64,000 bases of DNA, from assembly GCF_040729435.1 (NCBI RefSeq), contig NZ_CP160398.1, positions 4,383,001 through 4,447,000 of the forward strand. The letters run 5' to 3'. Below, piece by piece: positions 2,158-8,410 of this stretch (position 1 is its first letter; every line of letters starts with the position of its first letter). Both the position numbers and the translations under genes were made by a program. The notes under the pieces were generated by a model. It was not told the DNA's origin and did no database searches. It worked only from the letters and a program-made list of their open reading frames with translations. This stretch comes from Pseudomonas sp. HOU2. GTDB lineage: Bacteria; Pseudomonadota; Gammaproteobacteria; Pseudomonadales; Pseudomonadaceae.

Positions 2158-2248
2158 CGAAAGGATAAGCGAATCCCTGCGCTTTGGGTAGTGGCTTTTC
2201 AATGTAGACCGGATTCGGCGTTTTTCCTGATTCACGCCCCTCAAACAA

Positions 2249-2273
2249 AACGACCCGCACACGGCGGGTCGTT
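2249..2273 (-). terminator. Rho-independent terminator after the SDR gene
   Basis: On the minus strand a GC-rich stem (AACGACCCGC pairing with GCGGGTCGTT) is followed by TTTTGTTT. It lies 16 bp past the stop of the SDR gene and closes the luxI-afsA-OYE-SDR unit. Confidence 0.85.
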
Positions 2274-2288
2274 GGTTTTATTTTGATT

Positions 2289-3059
2289 TCAGAACTTGCC
2301 GCTGGCGTAACCCCCATCGATGGGCATGATCACACCCGTGACGTAAGCGGATTGATCGCTGAGCAGCCAGAGCACCGCGTTGGCCACTTCGTCCGCGGTG
2401 CCGAAACGCTTCATCGACGTCACGTTGATTTTGCGCTGGGTGTTTTCCGGTGCGGCTTTCAGGCGTGCCTCGCTGTTCATGCCGCCGAGGATCGGTCCCG
2501 GGGCGACCGCATTGACGCGAATGCAGCCGCCGTCTTCCAGTCGCGCATTTTCGATCGACGCCACCTGGGTCATGCCGTTGATCGCCTGCTTGCTGGCAAC
2601 ATAGGCGACCTGGCCGCCAATTGGCACCACGCCGGCACAGGATGAGGTGTTGACGATGGCCCCGGTGCCGCGGTCGAGCATCAGTTGCAGTTCATGACGC
2701 ATGCAGTGATAGGTGCCGTTGACGTTGATGTTCATCACCCTCATCCAGTCATCCGGGCACGATTGCGCGAGCGCTCCGTACTTGGCGGTTACGCCGGCGT
2801 TATTGAACGCGCAATCGAGACGGCCGTAGACCAAACGAATGCTCGCGAACGCCTGCTCGACCTGCACCGGATCCCCGACATCACAGGCGATGAAGCGGCA
2901 GTGTTCACCCAGCCGATCGGCCAGCGCCGCGCCTTTTTCTTCGTCCCGGCCGAACACGATCACATCGGCGCCGGCCTTGATCAGGCGTTCGCTGACGGTC
3001 TCGCCGATGCCACTGGTGCCGCCGGTGACCAGGCACACTTTTCCCAGAAAATCGTACAT
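2289..3059 (-). CDS. SDR-family NAD(P)-dependent oxidoreductase
   Basis: 256 aa classical short-chain dehydrogenase/reductase. Seen: cofactor motif TGGTSGIG (residues 12-19), NNAG (86-89), catalytic Ser in NTSS (about 139) and YVASK (Tyr153, Lys157). I chose ATG 3059 because AAGGAG sits 9 nt upstream; an in-frame ATG at 3068 would directly abut that ribosome site. It follows the flavin oxidoreductase by 13 bp and ends before a terminator, so it is the last gene of the afsA-like unit. By analogy with Streptomyces butanolide pathways, where an SDR reduces the side-chain ketone of a gamma-butyrolactone, it could be a tailoring ketoreductase; that role is inference. Confidence 0.9.
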   Translation of the reverse strand: MYDFLGKVCLVTGGTSGIGETVSERLIKAGADVIVFGRDEEKGAALADRLGEHCRFIACDVGDPVQVEQAFASIRLVYGRLDCAFNNAGVTAKYGALAQSCPDDWMRVMNINVNGTYHCMRHELQLMLDRGTGAIVNTSSCAGVVPIGGQVAYVASKQAINGMTQVASIENARLEDGGCIRVNAVAPGPILGGMNSEARLKAAPENTQRKINVTSMKRFGTADEVANAVLWLLSDQSAYVTGVIMPIDGGYASGKF

Positions 3060-3072
3060 ATGTCGCATCTCC

Positions 3073-4221
3073 TTATGCCAACGCGGGGCGTAAATATTTC
3101 GGGTTCACGCAGCAATACACCCGATCCAGTCGCGGATTGCTCTTGTCGCTGAAGCACTGACTGTCCCAGCGGCATTTGTGGATGTCGGCGGAACGGCCCT
3201 GCAGGGTTTTGTTGATCAGGTCATTGTCGGCGAACAGCGCTCGCGACATTCCTACCCAATCGCATACGCCATCGGCGAGCAACTGCTCGGCCTTGTCCAG
3301 CCCATCGATGAAACCGGCGTAACCCACCGGCACTGTCGACACGGATTTGATCGCCCGCACGCCGGCTTGCAGGTAGTGGTCCATGGTCTCGGAATGCACG
3401 ATCAACTGGCCGAACGTCGCGCCCATGCACATCGAACATTCCAGCGCGGCAACGCCGGCCTGACAGAGCGCCTGCACGGTTTCCTTGAGGTCCGTATATT
3501 GCAGCCCTTCAGCGCCCAGACGGTCGTCGATGCCCAGGCGAATGGTGACGATCAGTTGGCCCTGGGTACGCTCGCGGATGGCCCTGACCACTTCGAGCAA
3601 AAGCCGCGCACGGTTCTCTTCGCTGCCACCATACCGGTCGGTGCGCTTGTTGGTGTGCGGCGAGAGAAAACTGCTCAGCAGGTAGCCGTTGGACGCCTGC
3701 AACTGCACCAGACGCGCGCCGTTGGTCCAGGCCAGCCAGGCGGAATGGGCGAACTGCTCGATCACCAGAGCGATGTCGGTTTCGTCCATGATCCGCACGC
3801 GGTAATCCGGATCGAGTTTCGACACGCGCGGGCAGGGCACGCCACTCGGGGTCAGCACGGCAACGCCGGTGTGCGTGGTGGTGCCCTGACCACCGTAATG
3901 CTGCAGTTGCACACCCACCGGCGTGTTGACCTGCTCGGCCATCGCGAACATCGCCTTGAGCGATTCGCCCTGATGTTCCTCGAACAGGCCGAGCCCGGTG
4001 CTCTGCAGACGCGACTGCGGCGAGACCGTGGCGTTGCACAGAAACGCCATGGAGCAACCGCCCTCCATGATGCCCTGATAGAACTCGATCATGGCGGGCG
4101 TCACGCACCCGCTGTGATCGGCCAGGTCCACGCCCATCGACGCGAAGAACAGCCGATTGCGCAACTCCAGCCCGCCGGCCAGCCGCAGGGGCTCCAGCAC
4201 GTGGGGATAGCGCGGCATCAT
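3073..4221 (-). CDS. Old-yellow-enzyme family NADH:flavin oxidoreductase
   Basis: 382 aa FMN-binding TIM-barrel ene-reductase. Seen: N-terminal PLRLAGGLELRNR, QLQHYGGQ (about 105-112) and the family signature NGYLLSSFLSPHTNKRTDRYGG region (178-199). In old yellow enzymes a His and an Asn in HSANGYLL bind the substrate carbonyl; here the motif is QASNGYLL, so the His position is Gln175 while Asn178 is kept. The tail has several cysteines (CRWDSQC, YCC) reminiscent of, but not clearly matching, the Fe-S segment of dienoyl-CoA-reductase-like members. The start ATG overlaps the stop of the afsA-like gene by 4 bp (ATGA), indicating translational coupling. A plausible role is reduction of a butenolide-type C=C bond made by the upstream enzyme (inference). 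Confidence 0.9.
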   Translation of the reverse strand: MMPRYPHVLEPLRLAGGLELRNRLFFASMGVDLADHSGCVTPAMIEFYQGIMEGGCSMAFLCNATVSPQSRLQSTGLGLFEEHQGESLKAMFAMAEQVNTPVGVQLQHYGGQGTTTHTGVAVLTPSGVPCPRVSKLDPDYRVRIMDETDIALVIEQFAHSAWLAWTNGARLVQLQASNGYLLSSFLSPHTNKRTDRYGGSEENRARLLLEVVRAIRERTQGQLIVTIRLGIDDRLGAEGLQYTDLKETVQALCQAGVAALECSMCMGATFGQLIVHSETMDHYLQAGVRAIKSVSTVPVGYAGFIDGLDKAEQLLADGVCDWVGMSRALFADNDLINKTLQGRSADIHKCRWDSQCFSDKSNPRLDRVYCCVNPKYLRPALA

Positions 4222-5462
4222 GCTTCCTTCCTTTGTTCGGGCATCGCCGAGGCTTGATCGAAGGTCATCCACAACGGTTGTCCGAGGACGGGCGCCGGGG
4301 CCGGGGCGGTTTCTTCGTGGGAGAAGTAAGCGAATTGCTTGAGCACTTCGCGCCACTTGAAGCGCAGCGGCGAATCCAGTTCTGCCAGCTGCAGCTTGAG
4401 CGTGCCGGCCTTTGTCGCGTCGCAGGTGTGCAGCGATTGCAGCGGCAGGCTGAGCATGCCTTCGTTTTCCAGGTACAGGTAGACGTGGCCGCGCTCGGAG
4501 GCGTCGAGCGGGCTGTCGCATTGCACTTGCAGACCGGCCATCGACAGCAGCTCAAGACGAGCGGAGAGGTGACGCCCGGAATCCAGGCGCACCAGCACTT
4601 CATGGCGTATGCCCTTGAGCGGACGGAACCAGCAGGCGGGGTCGATGTTGATATTCCGCATACGCTTGAACACCGGCATCTTGATCACTTCGCCGTGCAG
4701 GCGAATGTCGGCCACCAGCTCGCCTCGCTGGAAGAATCGCGCACGCTTGTCGACCTTGCGCGCCCGCGGCGGCGCCATGCCTTCGTAGTCGCCGACCAGT
4801 ACATCCACCTGAAACGAAGACTCGGTGTACCGGGGAAAACTCGACAGCAGATCAACGATGGAAATCGACACCTCGCCGCGGGCGTAACCGCTGTGCTGGT
4901 AGAACTGCGCGTACATCGCCTGGCGTGCCGCTTCGATCAGCATCAGGCCCGGCACGTGTTCGTGGTGTTTGCGGTAAAAGAAGTAATTGGCGGTGTCGTT
5001 GAACAGGGTGAAATAGAGCAGGCCCTGTTGCGGGCAGCCGTCCAGAGCCTTCAGAACATCATGCACCTGTCGACGCTGATCAAGGCTCAGGCCATTGTCG
5101 CAACCGGGCAGTCGAGCCAGTTTGGCCTCGGTGCTTTCCAGCACCCAGACGCCGCTGAGGATCAGGTGGTCAGTGGTTTTCTCGTAGTTCGTCAGCAGCT
5201 CCGGCAGACAGTCGGCCAGGCCCGCCAGTTCGAGCTCCTCCAGGTCGATGATGGTTGGCAGCGAACGCAGCACCAGACGCTCGCTGTCGAGCCGATAGGC
5301 CTGATTGACGATCTCCAGATCCATTGGATCAAGGTTCGCCCGTTGCACGATGGCGGCCGGCAGCCAGGCTGGCAGCAAGTGGTGAGCGTCGTAAATCAGC
5401 ACGTCGTCATCGTGGCCCTTGTGGACGATGTCTTTGGCAACTTTCCTGTGCATGTCGATCAT
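4218..5462 (-). CDS. AfsA-type gamma-butyrolactone synthase homologue with C-terminal PilZ-like domain
   Basis: 414 aa. The N-terminal part has IVHKGHDDDVLIYD (12-25), resembling the start of AfsA-family proteins. The hotdog segment FFYRKHHEHVPGLMLIEAARQA (161-182) carries the HVPG-x3-(I/L)EAARQA hallmark. AfsA enzymes condense a beta-ketoacyl thioester with dihydroxyacetone phosphate to start gamma-butyrolactone signals. Residues about 285-380 (IRHEVLVRLDSGRHLSARLELLSMAGLQV...) look like a PilZ-type beta-barrel, with the usual D/N-x-S-x-x-G loop present as LLSMAG; the fusion call is moderate. Start ATG 5462 has AGAGGG 6 nt upstream; ATG 5468 is too close to it. It is 156 bp downstream of the luxI-like gene and overlaps the OYE gene by 4 bp. 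Substrates cannot be told from sequence. Confidence 0.82.
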   Translation of the reverse strand: MIDMHRKVAKDIVHKGHDDDVLIYDAHHLLPAWLPAAIVQRANLDPMDLEIVNQAYRLDSERLVLRSLPTIIDLEELELAGLADCLPELLTNYEKTTDHLILSGVWVLESTEAKLARLPGCDNGLSLDQRRQVHDVLKALDGCPQQGLLYFTLFNDTANYFFYRKHHEHVPGLMLIEAARQAMYAQFYQHSGYARGEVSISIVDLLSSFPRYTESSFQVDVLVGDYEGMAPPRARKVDKRARFFQRGELVADIRLHGEVIKMPVFKRMRNINIDPACWFRPLKGIRHEVLVRLDSGRHLSARLELLSMAGLQVQCDSPLDASERGHVYLYLENEGMLSLPLQSLHTCDATKAGTLKLQLAELDSPLRFKWREVLKQFAYFSHEETAPAPAPVLGQPLWMTFDQASAMPEQRKEA

Positions 5463-5576
5463 GATCATCCCTCTGTGTTGAACGTTGGTTGTAAGGCAGT
5501 TGCTATCCATGGCGTGAAATCGACCCACACCGAAAGGTGCTGCTCGACGCGTGTCGGCAGCTTCAGTTGATGTGTT

Positions 5577-5600
5577 TTCTTGTTTTCTTGTTTTCTTGTT
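5577..5600 (-). promoter_or_regulatory. Triple AACAAGAA motif (Hfq/Crc 'CA motif') between luxI and afsA-like gene
   Basis: On the minus strand the 8-mer AACAAGAA occurs three times in direct succession. Each copy fits AAnAAnAA, the A-rich motif bound by Hfq with Crc in Pseudomonas catabolite repression. It starts 19 bp after the luxI stop and lies about 115 nt upstream of the afsA-like start, so it would be in the intercistronic mRNA. It is also an 8-bp tandem repeat that could change copy number. Confidence 0.6.
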
Positions 5601-5618
5601 ATCGCGTGTCGGGCAGGG

Positions 5619-6173
5619 TTACTGCACCGTGATGTAGCAGGCGCCGAGGGTTCGGTTGTCCAGTACCTGCGGCGGTGCCAGCCATTTGTAGTCGATGCCG
5701 CCACGTTTGAGCAGGCGTCCGATCGCGACCGGTGACACCGACACCAGATGTGAAACGCCGCAGGTCCTGGCGTACTCCAGCGTGGCCATGAACAGGCCAA
5801 CGGTGTTTTCGTCGGACATCACCTGTTCGTTTTTGCCGCCCTCGGCATCGAGGTCCAGTGAGGTGAAGCGCGACAGCTCCCAGATGTCATCGCCGCACGG
5901 TGCAGGCTTGTCGCCGAGCAACGAGGTGAACACCTCACTCAGCAGATACGGCTGGGTGGTCGGCAGCAGGCGGGCGCATCCCTTGATGTTGCCGTCGTGT
6001 TCTTCGGCGACGATGTAGTGGGTGCCGCTGTGATCGAATTGATCGAACTCGAAATCGTCCGGCGTGGATAACTGCCAGCCGAGGCGTTCGACGAACACCT
6101 GATAGCGATATTGAGCCAAGCGTTGACGCTTTACTGTCGTCAACTCGTCATAACGTCCTGACAAGTAATCCAT
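5619..6173 (-). CDS. LuxI-family acyl-homoserine-lactone synthase
   Basis: 184 aa, typical length. The invariant residues of the family are present: Arg23 and Phe27 in YRYQVF, Trp33, Asp44 and Asp47 in FDQFD, Arg68 in CARLLP, Glu99 and Arg102 in WELSRF. The enzyme joins an acyl chain from acyl-ACP to S-adenosylmethionine to make a diffusible AHL; the acyl length cannot be read from sequence. ATG 6173 is preferred over the adjacent in-frame GTG 6176 (GGAA 6 nt upstream). It is divergent from its LuxR-type regulator with a lux box 62 bp upstream, and appears to head an operon continuing into the afsA-like, OYE and SDR genes. Confidence 0.95.
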   Translation of the reverse strand: MDYLSGRYDELTTVKRQRLAQYRYQVFVERLGWQLSTPDDFEFDQFDHSGTHYIVAEEHDGNIKGCARLLPTTQPYLLSEVFTSLLGDKPAPCGDDIWELSRFTSLDLDAEGGKNEQVMSDENTVGLFMATLEYARTCGVSHLVSVSPVAIGRLLKRGGIDYKWLAPPQVLDNRTLGACYITVQ

Positions 6174-6234
6174 CACAGATTCCGTTTAGTGATTGGTTGG
6201 GTGGCGATTAAAGTGCACACTGCGCTCGCATACT

Positions 6235-6254
6235 ACCTGTCACCCTTGACAGCT
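6235..6254. promoter_or_regulatory. lux box
   Basis: ACCTGTCACCCTTGACAGCT is a 20-bp dyad; the half sites ACCTGTC and GACAGCT differ from perfect symmetry at one position. It is centred in the 155-bp gap between divergent luxI (start 6173) and luxR (start 6329) and matches LuxR/LasR-type operator architecture, which predicts AHL-dependent positive feedback on luxI. Confidence 0.85.
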
Positions 6255-6328
6255 AGCGGAAACATTTGGAAATATGCTAGGCATGTTGGCAAGAGGCCGA
6301 CAGCATTAACTGTGGGAAAGGAATCTCT

Positions 6329-7048
6329 ATGTCATATTGGCAGGCTGAACTGTTGGAAAACGCCATGTCTGCAACGGATGTCGAGTTGTTGTTCGACAGT
6401 ATCAAGACCGTCGCCAGGCAGTTGGAGTTTGATTATGTGGCTTACGGGTCACGCCGACTTTTCCCCATCACCAAACCCTGTCTTTTTCTTGCCAATAATT
6501 ATTCGCCCGCCTGGCAAGCTGCCTATTCCGCCAATCGTTACCTGGACGTCGATCCTTACGTCCAGCGCGCAATGCGCAGCGTGAAACCGGTGCTGTGGGA
6601 CGCTGAACTCAAGGCTCAGATGCCCGAATTCTGGCAGGATGCGCAGGCTCACGGGCTCTCGGAGGGCTGGGGGCAGACGCTGCTCAACAGCGAAACTCAA
6701 GGGCTGGTGACCTTCGCCCGGGGCAGCGAGCCGATCACCGCGCTGGAACTCGAAACCAAACAGGCGCAGCTGTCCTGGCTGGCCCAGATTACTCACCTGG
6801 GGCTGACGCGCCTGCAGATGCGCGGCGCCGATTCGGTGCTCCCGGTGCCGATAGAACTGTCGCAGAGAGAAAAGGAAATCCTGCAATGGACCGCTGACGG
6901 AAAGTCATCGGACGATGTTTCGGTGATCCTCGGCATCAGCAAAAGGACGGTTAACTTCCATATAAACCATTGCCTGAAGAAGCTCGGTTGCCAAAACAAG
7001 ATCGCTGCTGCAGTTAAAGCTTCGCTGATGGGGCTGCTCTGGAAATAA
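6329..7048 (+). CDS. LuxR-family AHL-responsive transcriptional regulator
   Basis: 239 aa with the two-domain LuxR layout. The N-terminal autoinducer-binding domain contains the conserved cluster in YSPAWQAAYSANRYLDVDPYV (Trp62, Tyr66, Asp75, Pro76) and Trp90 in PVLWDAE. The C-terminal GerE-type helix-turn-helix is LSQREKEILQWTADGKSS...ISKRTVNFHINHCLKKLG (about 178-222). The keys for AHL binding are all there, so this is a true AHL receptor. ATG 6329 has AAGGAA about 7 nt upstream. It presumably activates the divergent luxI operon through the lux box. A short 7-bp inverted repeat (7052-7058/7076-7082) just after the stop may end the transcript. Confidence 0.95.
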   Translation: MSYWQAELLENAMSATDVELLFDSIKTVARQLEFDYVAYGSRRLFPITKPCLFLANNYSPAWQAAYSANRYLDVDPYVQRAMRSVKPVLWDAELKAQMPEFWQDAQAHGLSEGWGQTLLNSETQGLVTFARGSEPITALELETKQAQLSWLAQITHLGLTRLQMRGADSVLPVPIELSQREKEILQWTADGKSSDDVSVILGISKRTVNFHINHCLKKLGCQNKIAAAVKASLMGLLWK

Positions 7049-7373
7049 TTACACCAGTCATATATTGGATAACTAACTGGTGAATAACCGAGGTGAGTGT
7101 GCGCGAGTTCACAGATTGACCCGATTAATAATATTTCACTTATAAGCTAATGCCATTTCAAGCGTAACGAACTTATCAAGAAACTTCAGTTATACCGTCA
7201 TAATCATTCTTGTCGACGGTGCCTGTTCAACGGTGCGACCAAACGCCACGGCGCAGGTTTGATGCCGGCTCGCCATGATGCGTGGCCTCGTTTCTGCATG
7301 GCGCACAGCGCATACGGAAAACCGTCACGTCCAACCGGCATCATCCGCTCGCATCGGGCTAAGGAACATCATC
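7049..7373. other. Intergenic region without recognised gene
   Basis: About 325 bp between luxR and psiE, AT-richer than its surroundings in the first 150 bp. Apart from a weak inverted repeat at 7052-7082 (CACCAGT...ACTGGTG) I see no gene or clear regulatory element. Open frames here lack ribosome sites and run into psiE in another frame. Confidence 0.5.
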
Positions 7374-7874
7374 GTGAAAATAAACTGGGCCGAGAAACTG
7401 CGGCAAAACGTGCATCAGCTGGCCGAGTCCCTGGGCAACCTGTTCGTCGAGACCTTTCACTATCTGGCGCTGTTCGCCATTGGTGCGGTGACCGCGTGGG
7501 CGGCGGTGATGGAATTTCTCGGCATGCTCGAAGAAGGCCACATCAAGATCGATGACATTCTGTTGCTGTTTATCTATCTGGAACTGGGGGCGATGGTCGG
7601 GATTTACTTCAAGACCAACCACATGCCGGTGCGCTTCCTGATCTACGTGGCGATCACTGCGCTGACCCGCCTGCTGATCTCCAACGTCTCGCATCACAAC
7701 CCGCCGGACATGGGCATCATCTACCTGTGCGGCGGCATTCTGCTGCTGGCGTTCTCGATCCTGGTGGTGCGTTACGCCTCGTCGCAATTTCCATCGGTGA
7801 AGATCGAAAAACCGCAACGCAAACTTGGCGCCGGCTCCGGTGAGCACCCCGAGATCGAGAAGGGCGAACTCTAA
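7374..7874 (+). CDS. psiE: PsiE-family phosphate-starvation-inducible membrane protein
   Basis: 166 aa. I chose GTG 7374 because AAGGAA lies 7 nt upstream; longer in-frame starts have no ribosome site. About four hydrophobic segments are visible (near residues 25-45, 60-75, 85-105, 115-135), and IDDILLLFIYLELGAMVGIYFK...MPVRFLIYVAITALTRLLI is the conserved PsiE core. In E. coli psiE is induced by phosphate starvation; its biochemical role is unknown. It converges on the DUF3509 gene, and the two stop codons overlap. Confidence 0.88.
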   Translation: MKINWAEKLRQNVHQLAESLGNLFVETFHYLALFAIGAVTAWAAVMEFLGMLEEGHIKIDDILLLFIYLELGAMVGIYFKTNHMPVRFLIYVAITALTRLLISNVSHHNPPDMGIIYLCGGILLLAFSILVVRYASSQFPSVKIEKPQRKLGAGSGEHPEIEKGEL

Positions 7875-8188: not shown

Positions 8189-8296
8189 GATGCGTCACCG
8201 CCTGATTGAACGTGCAGTTGTTGACCGGCCGTGATCGGGTTGGTTCGCAATACCTGATCATCGGCGATTCCGTGGCCATTTCGCCAAGTGCTTCTG

Positions 8297-8410
8297 TGTA
8301 GGAGCTGCCGCAGGCTGCGATCTTTTGATTTGCGGCGTCTTGATGTGCGTCATGAAGATCAAAAGATCGCAGCCTCGTTGCACTCGACAGCTCCTACACA
8401 GCTCCTACAC
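8297..8410. repeat. REPIN (degenerate), AGGAGCTGCCGCAGGCTGCG family
   Basis: The left arm (8297-8325) is canonical. The right arm, from about 8360, is interrupted (AGCCTCGTTGCACTCGACAG) and ends in a duplicated AGCTCCTACAC, so this copy is decaying. Confidence 0.8.

Follow-up and report, generated by a model that had tools for sequence, protein, structure and literature searches.

Genes for an AfsA-type hotdog/PilZ protein, a flavin reductase and an SDR next to luxI/luxR in Pseudomonas sp. HOU2: a putative AHL-switched biosynthetic operon

What does a LuxI/LuxR pair control when the genes beside it resemble a pathway to another lactone? This question is raised by a locus of the soil bacterium Pseudomonas sp. 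HOU2, which lies in the window, i.e., the whole 64-kb stretch of DNA analysed here (positions 4,383,001-4,447,000 of a single-contig 6.05-Mb genome). With a probability of roughly one half, we read it as a horizontally acquired, AHL-switched biosynthetic operon, which would build a butenolide out of DHAP and a beta-ketoacyl thioester and then reduce it. The features are, in window coordinates:

1760-2098 and about 7374-7874: yebG and psiE, the genes flanking the insertion
about 2227-7230 (~5.0 kb): insertion with the five genes, from flank alignments to uninserted relatives
2249-2273, minus strand: terminator-like hairpin 3' of the SDR gene, 10 pairs, both strands with T-rich tails
2289-3059, minus strand: short-chain dehydrogenase/reductase (SDR); PF13561 (adh_short_C2) 182 bits, also PF00106
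3073-4221, minus strand: old-yellow-enzyme-type (OYE) flavin reductase; PF00724 153 bits
4218-5462, minus strand: AfsA-type hotdog protein; PF03756 39.5 bits, cut-off 24
4323-4640, minus strand: PilZ-coding part of the afsA-like gene (residues 275-380, PilZ fold match)
5619-6173, minus strand: luxI-type AHL synthase; PF00765 94.9 bits, cut-off 24, sole PF00765 match in the genome
6235-6254, luxR-luxI gap: lux-box-like palindrome ACCTGTCACCCTTGACAGCT
6329-7048, plus strand: luxR-type AHL receptor/activator; PF03472 100 bits, PF00196 (GerE) 66 bits

The original prediction described a divergent luxR and luxI around one lux box, followed on the luxI strand by an AfsA homolog, an OYE and an SDR and closed by a terminator. 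Profile matches and coordinates bear this out: the OYE gene overlaps the afsA-like gene by 4 bp, 13 bp separate the SDR and OYE genes (the SDR searches used the span 2289-3056, with the start codon left out), and luxI and the afsA-like gene are 156 bp apart. The LuxI protein can be aligned with the solved AHL synthases 3p2f and LasI, and its product can be assumed from the family to be an AHL. Beside these genes, neither another LuxI nor another AfsA domain was found in the genome, which holds one further autoinducer-binding protein. Scored against the lux box consensus, the palindrome agrees at 11 of 12 positions and is the sole such match in the 64 kb, where eight sites reach at least 10 and a Markov model of the window leads one to expect 0.13 sites at 11 or more. 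It is identical in seven of the eight aligned loci of the divergent arrangement described below (window counted) and altered in L021. Judged from site and layout, LuxR together with the AHL would bind here and switch on luxI and the three genes behind it, and the arrangement is compatible with the one control unit that was postulated. The scan for terminator-like sites found none on the minus strand of the luxI-afsA gap; one minus-strand site (4070-4047) lies inside the OYE gene, and the region has 11 such sites vs 4.9 in shuffles. No integrase gene was seen in the unit.

Three observations go beyond the original prediction, namely that the unit is an insertion, that the AfsA-OYE-SDR trio occurs in many other Proteobacteria, and that the AfsA protein carries a PilZ fold.

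The five-gene block is a discrete insertion between yebG and psiE. Alignments of the flanks with uninserted relatives stop and restart at window positions 2226/7231 (L109), 2223/7228 (L110) and 2218/7232 (L112). Among 38 genomes searched, 23 others of the genus have a psiE match; yebG adjoins psiE in 19 of them, where the five genes would not fit, and is absent from the 1.5 kb examined in the remaining four. The unit occupies the same site in L010, L017, L018 and L022, and it probably lies elsewhere in L019-L021, because the stretch examined there shows neither a yebG- nor a psiE-type match. G+C content varies between 0.545 and 0.643 along the unit, and a sharp break is absent.

Among 84,980 species genomes scanned, 31 named loci proved to carry relatives of the AfsA protein, with hosts including Pseudomonas, Methylosinus, Paracoccus, Roseobacter, Xenorhabdus, Gilliamella, Rhizobium, Pseudoalteromonas, Photobacterium and a Legionellaceae MAG; the closest, at 96%, come from Pseudomonas parakoreensis (L017) and Pseudomonas sp. 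RIT288 (L022). A relative from Providencia (P0023) is 46% identical. All three genes (AfsA, OYE and SDR) are present in 28 of these loci, the exceptions being L036 with AfsA alone and L042 and L046 with AfsA and a distant SDR, and it is therefore likely that the three proteins share a pathway. The trio is a sporadic proteobacterial cassette. The AfsA protein was matched in eight of 298 Pseudomonas genomes drawn, six of them with the trio and an adjacent luxI, one (G055) with the trio without luxI, and one (G286) in which the match is weak and lies within a long frame. A class-wide draw gave two matches in 369 genomes (the window's own and a weak one), and neither 72,556 plasmid records nor viral contigs contained a match to this protein. 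Gene order by chance was considered and rejected on the recurrence of the trio and on the presence of luxI in all 12 named Pseudomonas loci.

The AfsA domain ascribed to the 4218-5462 protein is present: its PF03756 score lies above the cut-off, and the motif residues H169, P171, G172, E177, R180 and Q181 are invariant in 79 of 79 relatives. Streptomyces-type AfsA proteins have two hotdog repeats in tandem, whereas this protein has one hotdog, which is split by an insert of about 115 residues (approximately residues 31-145, the limits being our reading) and fused to a C-terminal PilZ fold. In the structure model (pLDDT 85.9, with low confidence at residues 164-168 adjoining the motif), fold matching to FabZ and PilZ spreads the hotdog over residues 4-263, of which some 120-140 positions align, and puts the PilZ fold after it. 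A second hotdog was found neither by Pfam, which gives one stretch, nor in the model. The ScbA/BarX equivalog NF041195 matches only residues 151-253, at 40 bits vs a cut-off of 200. An ordinary two-hotdog synthase was rejected on this score, the model, and the single hotdog with its PilZ fold. When PDB sequences were searched with the AfsA alignment, the two matches obtained (E 0.016 and 0.15) were both to other kinds of proteins. The fusion is an unusual enzyme build, with a c-di-GMP-receptor fold on a putative lactone synthase; no description of an AfsA-PilZ fusion was found in the open-access literature, among the matches listed.

PilZ receptors of c-di-GMP carry the motifs RxxxR and (D/N)xSxxG. 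Both are missing in the window PilZ, where the aligned positions read W..L and L.S..G, and PF07238 (PilZ) has no match in the window protein at E <= 1; at E <= 0.05 this profile does recognise 12 of 33 relatives. Probably the fold is structural here, or binds a ligand other than c-di-GMP. Among the 79 relatives, (D/N)xSxxG occurs in 28, RxxxR in three and both in three. A relative with the two motifs is P0065.

How far could these genes follow the A-factor/SCB route of Streptomyces, with AfsA/ScbA, BprA, a ketoreductase and ArpA/ScbR, as the original prediction proposed? The idea holds in that both combine an AfsA domain with an ene-reductase and a ketoreductase, so that the same three steps are possible, and in that OYE and SDR travel with AfsA; the AfsA protein itself is not of the Streptomyces type. 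As family, motif and the gladiostatin precedent discussed below suggest, the hotdog enzyme would condense a beta-ketoacyl-ACP or -CoA with DHAP to a phosphorylated 2-acyl-3-hydroxymethylbutenolide. The OYE may then reduce the doubly activated ring C=C, which in Streptomyces is the step of BprA, a protein of a different family, and the SDR may reduce the side-chain ketone. As had been noted, a phosphatase gene is absent from the unit, and a housekeeping phosphatase of the host would presumably remove the phosphate. The YxxxK motif of the SDR is kept in all 34 aligned rows; in the OYE, Gln stands in place of the first active-site His in 29 of 32 rows, including that of the window, and the relatives of this protein with solved structures are NADPH dehydrogenases and chromate reductases. 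The absent phosphatase gene, the non-Streptomyces hotdog build, the low-confidence stretch of the model, the Gln in the OYE and the occurrence of the trio without luxI count against the main reading.

The pathway would thus end in a gamma-butyrolactone or a butenolide, serving as a signal, an inhibitor of competitors or in another role. The original prediction spoke of a second lactone signal or product. Unlike Streptomyces, the unit has LuxI/LuxR in front and its genome no ScbR-type receptor above the cut-off: the ArpA/ScbR profile NF041196 gives 23 genome matches, none over the cut-off (best 75.9 vs 150 bits), and it gives such below-cut-off matches in 13 of 14 control genomes too. For want of this receptor, a second signal is just one option, and a product stays as the other.

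Gram-negative AfsA domains are known from several systems. The AfsA-like (PBS) domain of the gladiostatin polyketide synthase of Burkholderia gladioli condenses 3-ketothioesters with DHAP in vitro (PMC7756379); unlike the present protein it is part of a polyketide synthase with an antibiotic as product, and the accessible part of that report does not mention a link to luxI or an OYE. In Ruegeria pomeroyi DSS-3, a putative GBL cluster with an AfsA domain is required for killing and also for the greater part of its own transcription; it is likewise thought to be horizontally acquired and has a density-dependent effect, but comes with its own regulators and transporter (PMC7426152). The AfsA-type gene of Chromobacterium subtsugae is reported to be quorum-sensing-regulated, as is proposed here, but its neighbors encode a HAD hydrolase, a DUF2165 protein, a MarR regulator and an efflux pump, and the sections available do not mention an adjoining luxI or OYE gene (PMC12114271). 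The 'A-factor-like' cluster of Pseudomonas Ps664 also has an AfsA-like gene, but this goes with a hydrolase, a P450 and an MFS protein and is said to be without the reductase, luxI being unmentioned in the excerpt available (PMC8719888).

A possible, though rather unlikely, alternative is an AHL-switched operon whose hotdog enzyme catalyses a different acyl transfer or condensation, joining an acyl thioester with another acceptor before reduction by OYE and SDR, and so leads to a non-lactone lipid, a furan or another compound. The single hotdog with its insert and PilZ fold, far from ScbA in score, would suit it, as would the KASIII, acyl-activating, PPTase or asparagine-synthase-like genes that neighbor the relatives in L043-L046, L015 and L042, and AfsA-type intermediates also give furans and methylbutenolides (PMC7756379). 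The invariant motif residues argue against it, however, and so does the gladiostatin domain, which is single and Gram-negative and yet uses DHAP (PMC7756379).

Is the trio then under AHL control at all? The co-occurrence across Pseudomonas, which the original prediction proposed as a check, is complete among the named loci: a LuxI profile, built from the 120 listed of 319 LuxI relatives, detected luxI at every one of the 12 Pseudomonas loci but at no other locus among the remaining 19, and luxR adjoins luxI in each. The absence of luxI is weaker evidence in L029, L034, L035, L037, L040, L042 and L046, because their stretches are short on one or both sides; L034 has a distant LuxR-like gene without luxI. 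Any match to the window LuxI occurs in 61 of the 298 Pseudomonas genomes. Three pairs of AfsA and LuxI relatives, each apparently from one genome (P0015/P0086, P0016/P0092, P0019/P0091), suggest that the link extends further. Since luxI is absent from the 19 non-Pseudomonas loci and from G055, the trio does not need AHL.

Two arrangements occur. In the divergent one (window, L010, L017-L022), luxR and luxI diverge and luxI lies 34-187 nt from afsA; in the tandem one (L012, L023-L025, L027, L030, L031), luxR and luxI stand in tandem and the distance is 1,250-1,340 nt, a stretch that in L024 holds Flavodoxin_2 and DUF2867 genes. In both, luxI is upstream of afsA on the same strand. Seven aligned loci of the tandem type have [AC]CCTGCC-type sites between luxR and luxI that agree at 9-10 of 12 positions, a score that other places there reach equally.

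It is unlikely that luxI-luxR and the trio are mere co-travellers and that the trio uses its own promoter in the luxI-afsA gap, without AHL control. This gap, with its 156 bp in the window and 34-187 nt in seven relatives, could house such a promoter, and the trio without luxI in other taxa and in G055 fits as well; against it stand the gap free of minus-strand terminator-like sites, the same-strand order in both arrangements and the link kept in all 12 named Pseudomonas loci. It is very improbable that the trio serves degradation, or alters the AHL or its acyl-thioester precursors, without a second compound being made: degradation offers no obvious task for an enzyme that condenses thioesters, and the trio occurs without luxI in the stretches examined of 16 distant loci, even if OYE and SDR are broad families and the acyl or 3-oxoacyl thioester substrates of LuxI and AfsA overlap.

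In the two arrangements, luxI was likely recruited separately; the pattern would equally agree with an old luxI that was lost several times. A joined AfsA, OYE and SDR tree of 32 rows (omitting L011, L013 and L014, apparent copies of L024, L027 and L030, further L016 and L036, and L042 and L046, which are without OYE) sets the two luxI-bearing groups apart and rejects a single clade (p-AU 2e-100). This rejection is weakened, because distant, long-branched rows drive it: with 19 rows and the distant ones left out p is 0.34, and with L034 added it is 6e-5. Single-gene trees of 30 rows (without L035 and L037) gave 0.074 for AfsA, 5e-6 for OYE and 0.021 for SDR. The LuxI tree (75 rows; duplicates L053, L060, L063 and L064 omitted and every fourth listed protein used from P0093 on) gave p 0.105, which does not decide on one clade.

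Each ingredient of the unit is already known. LuxI/LuxR-controlled clusters such as that of phenazine (PhzI/PhzR) likewise have an AHL circuit adjoining possible target genes, but here the candidate targets resemble a pathway to another lactone. In line with the original prediction, to whose author no such system was known, no description of a luxI-luxR pair joined to AfsA-OYE-SDR was found in the open-access literature, among the matches listed. If the main reading is true, the AHL language of Gram-negative bacteria and the Streptomyces-type butyrolactone/butenolide language would be joined in one transcription unit as a directly testable cascade, and luxI-afsA-OYE-SDR would be a genome-mining handle for unknown Pseudomonas metabolites. 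A more speculative picture, which we hold only tentatively and rather doubt, is that two Pseudomonas lineages separately joined an AHL circuit to the AfsA-PilZ/OYE/SDR cassette, so that one lactone signal (the AHL) would induce a second lactone; in relatives with the PilZ motifs, c-di-GMP would gate the AfsA-type synthase and so connect a hormone-like product with a second messenger, and in the window's lineage this gate would have been swapped for cell density.

The window's lineage carries the trio in a stripped form, without the extras that are frequent beside it elsewhere, which are a second SDR gene, a Flavodoxin_2 gene and a DUF2867 gene. Among 38 stretches, the Flavodoxin_2 cluster was found in 14 and the DUF2867 gene in eight; these stretches contain duplicates, and the ORF caller missed some ORFs in them.

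An AfsA-domain match of some kind is present in 34 of the 298 genomes sampled from the genus Pseudomonas, and many of the Pseudomonas matches lie within a frame that is roughly 1,150 residues long and holds two AfsA stretches (loci L088, L092, L099 and L102, among others). These long frames constitute an AfsA family of Pseudomonas that is distinct from, and commoner than, that of the window; in the part of the L092 frame that was scanned, AfsA was the sole domain detected. Some Pseudomonas genomes contain a frame of 342-385 residues (L080-L083), also with two AfsA stretches, which is similar to the two-hotdog layout of Streptomyces, and L080 has an AfsA score of 147.5 bits. Distant AfsA relatives, in loci L015 and L042-L046, are accompanied by genes for KASIII, AMP-ligase, PPTase, MFS or asparagine-synthase-like proteins, whereby the neighbours were typed in L044, L043 and L015 and grouped through similarity clusters in the remaining loci. 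These neighbourhoods look like a larger biosynthetic cluster of unknown kind.

A distant LuxR-like gene (L034:7114-7851, minus strand; 25% identical) is divergent from the AfsA-OYE-SDR trio of a Deltaproteobacteria MAG, and no luxI was found in the 14 kb covered around this trio. The genome of the window (G000) itself encodes a second autoinducer-binding LuxR-type protein at C1:2392922-2393299, for which no second luxI was found in G000 as a partner, and which is possibly a LuxR solo.

Within the unit, the luxI-afsA gap harbors about three ACAAGAAAA-like units in tandem (window 5573-5600, minus strand). Furthermore, a GATCGCAGCCTGCGGCAGCTCCTACA-like intergenic repeat occurs next to the flanking genes in inverted copies, at about 1670-1750 and 8290-8410 of the window, and pieces of it can be aligned at additional places in the related loci.
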